IMG/VR virus record: IMGVR_UViG_3300020454_000085
Location: 1 to 23,902 of that record
DNA: 23,902 nucleotides
Reading direction: 5' to 3' (one strand)
Origin: a virus
Shown: positions 1 through 3,505 of the stretch, in pieces
How positions within the stretch are numbered: the stretch's first letter is position 1
Layout: every line of letters starts with the position of its first letter
Notes under the pieces: generated by a model
The model's database searches: none
What the model was told of the DNA's origin: nothing
The model's input: the letters and a program-made list of their open reading frames with translations, nothing else
Translations under genes and position numbers: made by a program

Positions 1-1493
1 AGAGATATCTTCTTCGCCATTTGTATGTTGTTGCACCTTGCAATTTCTTTAACAAGATCTTGCGTTGGTGTCTTCTCGTATTTCTTCTTGGCATCGATCA
101 TCCTCCTCTTAAAAATAACACGCTCGTTATACATCTTCTCCATGAGTTCGGGAAGAAAACCACGAATGTCTTTACGGTACTGTGCTCCATTAGCACATGT
201 TGCATACTCCTTGCTGATCTCAGTCTCTTGATTTAGAAACCTTTCAACGCTTGAACTGGGACATCTAGCCTCCCTGAGGGTTTCTGGTGAGATATTGTAC
301 TGCATAATAAGATGAGGGTACAAGCTATTAAGGTCAAAACTGACCACCCAATCATACTTTCCTGGAATCGGTTCCTTGACATAAGCTCCTGCGTACTTTT
401 CATCCTTATCGGATCTCTCCTTAGGTGGGATGACGATGTTCCGCTTTTTAAGATAGTTGTATATGATGTTGTCCCACATTCGGACTTGATAGAACACATC
501 AGAGTAATTAACTTTAGCATCATATGCCATAGTCAATGCTAACTGAATCAGTCCCATCTTATCCTCAAGACGGTCAACAAGTTCCACATCGATTATATTA
601 TATTCTACAAATTTTTGCCACCCATTTGTGTAGAAATCCTTAAAGGTATCAAACTCTGAGTGATCAAGTTTCTTTTGTCCCAGTTCAACACTTGCAATAT
701 AATCCAACCTATAAGACTCCTGTGCCTTATATGTAAACTTCTTATAGAGATCAAGATAATCTAACTGTGTTATACCACCAATATCGTAGGTGTTATATCT
801 ACGACCTTTGATATAAATTTCTCTTTGTGATACTAAACCCCAAGGTGATAACCTACGAGTTAACTTCTCACCAACAATCCTATCAAGTCTTTTAGTAAGG
901 TATGGTATATCAAACAGTTGAATGTTCCATCCAGTCACAATGTCTGGAGTGTTGGTCATCCACCAATTAATAAAATCATTCAATAAATCATATTCATTAT
1001 TGAACTGCCTATAAACAACATTATCTTTCTTGTTCTTAAATGAACCTACACCCCATGTGATAATATCTTTTGTATTATAATTCTGCATTGATATTAGTAG
1101 AATCTCTTGATCAGCAGATTCTACATCGGGGAATCCATTCTCCGATCTGGTTTCAATATCAATTGTGTACAAACGAATTTTACTGATATCAAACTTGATC
1201 TCATCCTCAGGATAAGTATCAGAAATATATTGATAGATGAATCTATCTTGCCCATAGACATCAAAGTTTTCTACAAACTCATATCTCTTTACAAAATCTC
1301 GTGACTCTCTTACAGTACCAGGTTTAATCTTCTCAACATACTCTCCTTCTAGGGTTTGGTACTTTGTTTTTTTCTTTGCAGATACAAACAAAGTAGGAGA
1401 GTATTTCTCACGGAACTGGAAATACTCTCCTCTGTCATAACCACGAACGAGGAAGTGATCCCCGATCATAACTACATTAGTATAAAACTTCAT
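1..1493 (-). CDS. 43: DNA polymerase gp43 (3' part beyond the window)
   Basis: Family B replicative DNA polymerase of T4 type, with proofreading exonuclease. About 497 residues are visible from the ATG at 1491-1493, and the frame runs off the left edge, so the palm motif C and thumb are missing. The exonuclease I motif DIETRSENGFPD is read near 1110-1150. The polymerase motif A region reads VVSFDLNSLYPHLIMQYNIS near 290-350, matching the T4 DLTSLYPS segment. The start overlaps the stop of the upstream 88-residue gene as ATGA, which suggests translational coupling. The gene closes the replication block that also holds RegA, gp62, gp44 and gp45. Identity is certain from the motifs; only the C-terminus cannot be judged. 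I saw no split or intein in the visible part. Confidence 0.96.
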   Translation of the reverse strand, partial: MKFYTNVVMIGDHFLVRGYDRGEYFQFREKYSPTLFVSAKKKTKYQTLEGEYVEKIKPGTVRESRDFVKRYEFVENFDVYGQDRFIYQYISDTYPEDEIKFDISKIRLYTIDIETRSENGFPDVESADQEILLISMQNYNTKDIITWGVGSFKNKKDNVVYRQFNNEYDLLNDFINWWMTNTPDIVTGWNIQLFDIPYLTKRLDRIVGEKLTRRLSPWGLVSQREIYIKGRRYNTYDIGGITQLDYLDLYKKFTYKAQESYRLDYIASVELGQKKLDHSEFDTFKDFYTNGWQKFVEYNIIDVELVDRLEDKMGLIQLALTMAYDAKVNYSDVFYQVRMWDNIIYNYLKKRNIVIPPKERSDKDEKYAGAYVKEPIPGKYDWVVSFDLNSLYPHLIMQYNISPETLREARCPSSSVERFLNQETEISKEYATCANGAQYRKDIRGFLPELMEKMYNERVIFKRRMIDAKKKYEKTPTQDLVKEIARCNNIQMAKKIS

Positions 1494-1756
1494 TCAATAA
1501 CCTTTTCGTATGCCTCTAGCAATTCTTTTGCAGGGTCTAACAAAGTAAGTATAGCATCTGATGATATCATACACTTATTATCTGTTGTTAAATTCTGACC
1601 TGGCCACCTATGCAATCTTTCTTTCCAATCACCTTCACCAACAAACTCAACAGGATCTGTTAGTTCACAATCGGGTTCACCAATTTCAGCACCAACTTCT
1701 CTGATCTTTGAGATCAATACTTTTTTGTCATATTTTAAAACAAGAATCTTAACCAT
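1490..1756 (-). CDS. small beta-rich protein, paralogue A (Sm-like?)
   Basis: 88-residue protein of unknown function directly upstream of gp43. It starts with KILVLKYDKKVLISKIREV, has DPVEF in the middle, then a Trp followed by an acidic turn, and ends with LDPAKELLEAYEKVIE. This layout matches the next gene upstream (1756-2067) and the gene at 19717-20127: a first strand plus a turn and an 'IxEV' strand, a Pro-hydrophobic-Glu strand, a Trp strand, a closing strand, then a short helix with Tyr. I infer a small barrel of Sm-like type, but this rests on pattern only. The start is set by a TAATG overlap with the upstream gene, and the stop overlaps the gp43 start as ATGA. It is therefore probably co-translated with the polymerase. 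A role in replication or RNA binding is a guess. Confidence 0.8.
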   Translation of the reverse strand: MVKILVLKYDKKVLISKIREVGAEIGEPDCELTDPVEFVGEGDWKERLHRWPGQNLTTDNKCMISSDAILTLLDPAKELLEAYEKVIE

Positions 1757-2067
1757 TAGTCTCTCCTCCCATTAGTTAGATCTTCATACATTTTTCTGAG
1801 ATCACCCATAGGTTCACATACAACAGAAACTGTAGAGGGGTTCAAGATGTATGTATCATCCTCAGATATCTCTAACCAAGTTCTAAGACCAATCTTTTTA
1901 ACCTCACCACCTGCTGTATTATTTTCCTCTTTGAGTTTTAATTCTGTAGTGTAAATAATTTCAAAAGGTCTGATAACTAAGTACTGACGAATATCACCAT
2001 CAGTTACTTCTTTGATGTCAGCAAGGATCTGTGTTCCATCGTTTAACACAGCAATTTTAATTGACAT
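1756..2067 (-). CDS. small beta-rich protein, paralogue B (Sm-like?)
   Basis: 103-residue protein without an assigned function. The N-terminus IKIAVLNDGTQILADIKEV is close to that of the downstream neighbour, and the segment VIRPFEIIY parallels its DPVEF. The C-terminal half has WLEISEDDTYIL, then a segment ending in EPMGDLRKMYEDL. The same order is seen in the protein at 19717-20127 (KLVSGEEVVA, KPLKVEL, WITIPDDDKEVYSV), so these are three divergent copies of one family. It is the first gene downstream of the structured RNA at 2098-2280 and its promoter, and it overlaps the next gene as TAATG. No clear Shine-Dalgarno sequence precedes the ATG (only AAAGAA). If the RNA is a leader, this gene, paralogue A and gp43 are its likely targets. 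Confidence 0.82.
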   Translation of the reverse strand: MSIKIAVLNDGTQILADIKEVTDGDIRQYLVIRPFEIIYTTELKLKEENNTAGGEVKKIGLRTWLEISEDDTYILNPSTVSVVCEPMGDLRKMYEDLTNGRRD

Positions 2068-2097
2068 TTCTTTATAACAAAAATTTTGGGGTGGGAG

Positions 2098-2280
2098 GTT
2101 GGGTTCCTGTGTACCAACAATAGATGGGCATTTCTACAGTTAGAAAATCATCTATGCCTGAGACCCGACTGGTAAGTCGATTCTGCTCTCGCAGCAGCAC
2201 CACCTGTGTCTCATCACCTTAACCAGCTATATGCCAGTAAGTTTATTCAGTCACTCCCGTGTCAGTTCCGTCGAACCAAC
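2098..2280 (-). ncRNA. structured RNA, leader or independent small RNA
   Basis: This holds no gene but folds compactly on the minus strand. The ends pair (2273-2280 with 2098-2106, GTTGGTTC against GAACCCAAC, one bulge). A helix TGAGAC/GTCTCA (2208-2213 with 2159-2164) encloses two hairpins: CTGC-GAGA-GCAG at 2183-2194, which has a GNRA loop only on this strand, and a 5-bp hairpin at 2166-2179. A third arm pairs 2149-2155 with 2120-2126 (7 bp) and, inside it, 2141-2146 with 2131-2136 (6 bp, 4-nt loop). The 5' end falls at the predicted start of the promoter at 2287-2315. A second GTTGG near 2112-2116 could compete for the closing CCAAC, so a switch is possible. It may be a 5' leader of the gene at 1756-2067, since no terminator is seen after it. 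The RNA class is not recognised. Confidence 0.62.
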
Positions 2281-2286
2281 AAATAT

Positions 2287-2315
2287 ATTATACATTAAAA
2301 AAGGGGGTATGTAAA
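2287..2315 (-). promoter_or_regulatory. sigma70-type promoter for the structured RNA
   Basis: On the minus strand TTTACA (2310-2315) lies exactly 17 nt from TATAAT (2287-2292). This gives a predicted start at about 2280, the first base of the RNA's closing helix. The -35 box lies in the loop and 3' arm of the Hsp20 terminator. Host RNA polymerase could use it, so early expression is likely. Confidence 0.75.
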
Positions 2316-2322
2316 CCCCCTT
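2296..2322 (-). terminator. intrinsic terminator after Hsp20
   Basis: A GC-rich hairpin (AAGGGGG against CCCCCTT, 7 bp, 8-nt loop) is followed on the minus strand by six Ts. It begins 4 nt after the Hsp20 stop codon. Confidence 0.85.
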
Positions 2323-2784: not shown

Positions 2785-2809
2785 GTATAGTCCCTTACGG
2801 CAACTATAC
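2785..2809 (-). other. hairpin across the phosphomannomutase stop, Hsp20 leader
   Basis: A perfect 7-bp stem (GTATAGT/ACTATAC, 11-nt loop) covers the stop codon of the upstream gene and lies 31 nt before the Hsp20 start. There is no T-run after it, so it is not a standard terminator. It could be an RNA processing or translational control element. Confidence 0.4.
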
Positions 2810-3505
2810 TTTATTTAGTTTCATCATAGTATCTTTCCAATCTTTTACACAGTGGGAATGACCGCCCCTTTCTTGTACTGCTTGCCCTAAAGCATAGTCA
2901 TTCTGACCCTTTTCCATCATATCACCATAGAAATATAATTCATCTTCTTCTACAAAGTCTCTTAAGATCTGACTCTTGTTACTACCTGGTGCTCCTAAAT
3001 CTAAACCAGTCTGTCCACCTATATTAACTTCCAACTCTGGAAATTTCAACTTAAGTCTTCTAGCAATATCTTTTCTCTCATCGGTCATCTTATCCCATTT
3101 AACATACTCTTCTCTTTCTACAAAACAAACATTGTTTCTGCCTAGAATACTAAAGTTAACACCACCTGGTCTCCTTTCAATATGTAATCCATTACGAACT
3201 GGAAACTTACTGAATAGTAATTCATTCTCAAGATGACGCTCTACATCTAGTGGTAATTCCCAATCATCTCTATAGACACTAAGATCCCCTTCATACACAT
3301 CAGAACCAGAACAGTTATAAACTCTGGTGCAAAGATTGTATATGTAGGGTGTAACCTGTTCTATTGTCTTATCTCTATCGCTACCAGTGACAAGATAAAC
3401 ATCATGGTCTCCAATAAACTCACCAAAAAAATCTAAGAACTCAAGTTCAATAGGTTTTCTCGCAGGTGTCAAAGTCCCATCAACATCAAAAATAAATTTT
3501 TTCAG
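2804..3505 (-). CDS. phosphomannomutase-like HAD hydrolase, probable CTG start
   Basis: About 233 residues with the layout of eukaryote-type phosphomannomutase (HAD family), which interconverts mannose 6- and 1-phosphate. The catalytic motif FDVDGTLTPAR is near residues 6-16, followed by LVTGSDRDK, the cap domain with SILGRN, GGQTGLDLG, and the metal-site segment YFYGDMMEKGQNDYA. No ATG, GTG or TTG precedes the catalytic motif in frame; the first TTG lies inside it and would delete the nucleophile. The best start is CTG at 3503-3505, 7 nt after a GGAGG, overlapping the RegA stop as CTGA. It may feed sugar nucleotides for glycosylation, which fits the carbamoyltransferase nearby. The family assignment is firm; the exact substrate is inferred. 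Confidence 0.85.
   Translation of the reverse strand: MKKFIFDVDGTLTPARKPIELEFLDFFGEFIGDHDVYLVTGSDRDKTIEQVTPYIYNLCTRVYNCSGSDVYEGDLSVYRDDWELPLDVERHLENELLFSKFPVRNGLHIERRPGGVNFSILGRNNVCFVEREEYVKWDKMTDERKDIARRLKLKFPELEVNIGGQTGLDLGAPGSNKSQILRDFVEEDELYFYGDMMEKGQNDYALGQAVQERGGHSHCVKDWKDTMMKLNKV
2812..2818 (-). promoter_or_regulatory. candidate late promoter CTAAATA upstream of Hsp20
   Basis: CTAAATAAAG resembles the T4 late box TATAAATA and lies 58 nt upstream of the Hsp20 ATG, inside the end of the preceding gene. The distance is larger than for the other candidates in the window. Confidence 0.35.

Follow-up and report, generated by a model that had tools for sequence, protein, structure and literature searches.

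A full-length manA RNA in a marine cyanophage record, probably one copy of a free-standing phage RNA gene

In the 23,902 nucleotides of virus DNA analysed here (positions 1 to 23,902 of IMG/VR record IMGVR_UViG_3300020454_000085, hereafter the window), we identified a full-length manA RNA, a member of a family already catalogued from marine cyanobacterial viruses. Comparison of this copy with its relatives suggests that manA is probably a free-standing phage RNA gene acting in trans, of which the window would carry a cyanophage member. We favour this reading because a cis-regulator should track its gene; manA stays single-copy and retains its promoter while its location shifts, in some cases into tRNA arrays.

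Identity and conserved structure of the RNA

The Rfam search called for in a preliminary description of this DNA (cmscan, Rfam 15) returned a single strong match over the region 2098-2280. This match, to manA (RF01745), covers 2281-2088 on the minus strand and positions 1-192 of the 192 in the model; its score of 179.3 bits is well above the gathering threshold, 55.2 bits. The RNA had been left unassigned, with manA and wcaG named as possible kinds but neither matched to it; manA proved to be the right one, and neither wcaG nor GOLLD gave a match in the window. The 3′ limit, placed earlier at 2098, moves to 2088. As previously stated, no gene overlaps the element, at least none with an open reading frame (ORF) of 50 aa or more. 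The record carries T4-like genes (DNA polymerase, regA, and hsp20), in keeping with the marine cyanophage origin of the family.

Relatives were collected with two exact-pattern scans of IMG/VR, which yielded at least about 200 manA loci, or 173 after the removal of near-duplicates; strongly diverged copies are under-represented in this sample, because it was chosen by two conserved motifs. Folded by itself, the region beats shuffled sequences modestly (z about −2), and we accept the structure because the covariation is decisive. Among 43 diverse relatives, 27 of the 47 conserved pairs are changed on both sides, and 94.6% of the cells are paired, compared with at most 49% in controls slid by 1-3 columns. 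The conserved sequence and covarying pairs that the preliminary description proposed to look for were thus found.

The minimum-energy fold of the window copy is the same structure as the conserved multibranched form. It begins with the 5′ hairpin P1 (2260-2281, minus strand; TGTTGG/CTGACA), seen both in the alignment to the family model and in the minimum-energy fold. The multibranched core (2093-2258, minus strand) follows, closed by helix 1, GGGAG(2258-2254)/CTCCC(2097-2093), for which the relatives show the compensatory variants GGGTG/CACCC and AGGAG/CTCCT. Near the 3′ end lies the hairpin of helix 11 (2098-2118, minus strand; GTTGG(2118-2114)/CCAAC(2102-2098)), in which all cells are paired. 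The hairpin with a GNRA loop (GAGA) and the long two-part arm described earlier are both present in the family alignment, which also contains long invariant unpaired stretches. Two earlier proposals did not survive this comparison. A closing helix between GTTGG(2280-2276) and CCAAC(2102-2098) had been suggested, but the 5′ GTTGG pairs locally in P1, and CCAAC pairs with the GTTGG at 2118-2114. A switch in which two GTTGG copies compete was also rejected: each has its own local hairpin partner, and among the matches listed GTTGG occurs in P1 of 99 of 161 members and is absent from 62, and is therefore no family feature.

We also considered mimicry of 16S rRNA, as the 11-mer ACAGGTGGTGC (2197-2207, minus strand) is common to manA and Prochlorococcus 16S rRNA. 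This candidate was dropped; the match is probably due to chance, because about 5% of dinucleotide shuffles (53-58 per 1000) do as well.

Promoter, genomic positions, and an additional 3′ hairpin

On the minus strand, TTTACA(2315-2310)-17-TATAAT(2292-2287) is the strongest candidate promoter in the region and matches the sigma-70 consensus at 11 of 12 bases. It has a predicted start at ~2280, as the preliminary description had it, and the claim of a structured phage RNA starting at a promoter is borne out by this site together with the manA match and the covariation. Such a promoter is a family trait. Among the matches listed, 157 of the 163 dereplicated copies with 75 nt of upstream sequence have a near-consensus site (10 or more of the 12 consensus bases) at the same position, just 5′ of the first helix; in random windows of the same loci, a promoter of this standard was found in 21 of 924. 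In 140 of 159 copies, again among the matches listed, the end of the −10 box lies 4-6 nt 5′ of the start of the first helix. Two of the other copies score 9 and four score 8 or less. Of these four, L140 and L166 are preceded by a tRNA that ends at the base before manA, L113 by a tRNA one base away, and L042 by a tRNA-like sequence not called by the tRNA model. What was found is hence either an own promoter or, in the promoterless copies, a place behind a tRNA or tRNA-like sequence from which the RNA could be released. On a separate point, a terminator-like hairpin behind hsp20 (2301-2322, minus strand) holds the −35 hexamer in its loop, and this compact overlap recurs in 56 of the 157 promoter-bearing relatives among the matches listed.

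Isolates with manA include P-SSM2, P-SSM4, P-SSM7, P-HM1, P-HM2, and S-SSM7; no match was found in Syn9, S-PM2, S-SM1, S-ShM2, and Syn33, and none above the cut-off in S-SM2 and S-RSM4. The copy number is exactly one in each of the 14 complete phage genomes that carry manA and in each of 25 contigs of 22-210 kb. The location varies: behind gp23 (P-RSM4, P-HM1, S-SSM5, MED4-213, and MbCM1), near talC (P-RSM6, P-TIM68, P-SSM3, P-SSM4, and P-TIM40), 5′ of gp32 (P-HM2), between regA and a gene annotated as purL (P-SSM2), or behind psbA and ferredoxin (P-SSM7). It differs even between P-HM1 and P-HM2, which are one species according to NCBI. A collection of prokaryote genomes (84,980 species) gave 20 pattern matches, of which 13 were scanned with Rfam and two are manA. 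One (L257, 2633-2820, minus strand) is on a contig with T4-like recombination and helicase genes from a Prochlorococcus single cell, the other (L256, 126-327, minus strand) on a contig with tail-like proteins from a Flavobacteriales bin. Both contigs look like phage DNA because of these genes, and on the strength of the 13 matches scanned we rejected the idea of bacterial carriers.

In the window, the next gene (1756-2067, minus strand) encodes a DUF6561 protein of 103 aa, and its ATG lies 20 nt behind the RNA, so that this copy, like about half of its relatives, would by its position lie in a 5′ UTR. A second DUF6561 gene (1490-1756, minus strand) follows in tandem. Among the matches listed, the downstream ORFs fall into 48 clusters, the largest being gp32 (31), talC (20), DUF6561 (12), an unknown (10), phosphomannomutase-like (8), and Hsp20 (7), and cores that are 100% identical precede different genes. 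A phosphomannomutase-like gene, found directly 3′ of manA in those eight other loci, is also present in the window just upstream of hsp20 (2804-3472, minus strand). Related cores do share a downstream gene in 38 of 155 nearest neighbours among the matches listed, against about 10 by chance, an excess that shared descent alone would give. A tRNA lies directly 3′ of manA in S-SSM7 and in ten loci (L002, L021, L033, L034, L064, L094, L104, L109, L113, and L134), with L113 forming a tight tRNA-manA-tRNA array. With tRNA neighbours, 48 clusters, and a single copy per genome, manA does not track a target gene or pathway.

Of the 164 copies with enough downstream sequence among the matches listed, at least 81 are followed next by a tRNA, a terminator, or a 40-nt hairpin; this is a lower bound, because some tRNAs detected with the Rfam model escaped ARAGORN. 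In the other 83, the window copy included, none of these was recognised, and in many of them an ORF lies 10-60 nt beyond the RNA. The 40-nt hairpin (RACCUAAGAUGCAACUC-loop-GAGUSGGGCAGAKGGUY), which lies just 3′ of manA in 38 of the 164 copies listed (~1/4) and is absent from the window copy, is a new, previously undescribed part of manA and one that can be tested. When IMG/VR was searched with a pattern built from the hairpin alone, 96 distinct instances were obtained in the loci examined. In 95 of them manA is upstream, nearly always 8-21 nt away, and the remaining instance is cut by a contig end. Examples among the about 95 loci are L013 (3724-3752) and L026 (1160-1189, minus strand). Rfam 15 has no entry for the hairpin, and a search of 50,697 phage records turned up no more than a weak partial match. 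In its helices 98.2% of the cells are paired and 4 of 12 pairs are changed on both sides; its internal-loop bases are nearly invariant. It may act partly as a terminator, because a U-run often follows.

Candidate functions of manA

As a free-standing gene, manA would be transcribed by the host sigma-70 RNA polymerase from ~2280, probably early in infection, into a multibranched transcript about 190 nt long. This RNA of marine T4-like cyanophages would most likely work in trans, its conserved junction core probably binding a host protein or RNA; transcription may also run on into the gene behind it, but this would be secondary. The fuller proposal is that marine T4-like phages carry manA as a single-copy, trans-acting RNA gene that shifts its genomic position, is sometimes cut from tRNA arrays, ends in the 40-nt hairpin in a large subgroup, and takes over a host factor; we put this forward with slightly more confidence than doubt.

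The published assignment is different: manA is treated as cis-regulatory in Weinberg 2010 (PMC2864571; also the Rfam class) and in PMC9964418, where we found no transcript evidence either way. The RNA-seq paper on P-HM2 does not discuss non-coding RNA, and we found no published transcription-start map for a manA-carrying phage. A leader, perhaps a riboswitch, controlling the gene behind it (here DUF6561) could account for the half of the copies that reach the next ORF with no recognised end, and base pairing between the closing-helix strand CTCCC and a ribosome-binding site of sequence GGAG is conceivable in principle. The downstream ORF is on the manA strand in 155 of 161 cases among the matches listed, although long same-strand runs are usual in these genomes. 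These points count against the free-standing reading, as does the fact that a riboswitch core can likewise be identical before different genes. Nevertheless, a single copy per genome at varied sites, the copies in tRNA arrays that have no ORF immediately 3′ of them, the unrelated downstream clusters, and the many copies whose terminator lies clear of the core make a leader unlikely as the general function of manA, while about half of the copies, that in the window included, may act as leaders. Still less probable, in our view, is a role as a 5′ stabiliser or insulator: manA would then accompany a strong early promoter and shield any transcript behind it, and would sense nothing. The promoter and RNA do occur together before different early genes and tRNAs, but such a device would hardly be kept at one copy per genome or be closed off by terminators, as some copies are, and the long invariant unpaired stretches exceed the needs of a cap.

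Since 2010, annotations have given manA as a probable riboswitch, a label repeated in cyanophage papers. Should the RNA instead prove to be free-standing, a hunt for a metabolite ligand would be misdirected, and its maintenance as a single copy per genome in many cyanophages would make its host partner worth searching for.

Comparison with known phage RNAs

The window copy agrees with the published manA (RF01745; PMC2864571) along the whole model, in its sequence as well as its fold, and both come from marine phages; proximity to ibpA/hsp20 had been noted there as well. They differ in interpretation, as the published reading is that of a cis-regulatory riboswitch candidate, whereas the anatomy of the relatives favours a free-standing gene. 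The same paper described wcaG (RF01761), another structured cyanophage RNA. It is a family separate from manA. Within manA, a subgroup that does not include the window copy has the extra 3′ hairpin, which lies outside the RF01745 model. GOLLD RNA offers a parallel to the free-standing reading, as a structured RNA that stands alone and has been reported in the vicinity of phage tRNA genes, but it is much larger than manA.
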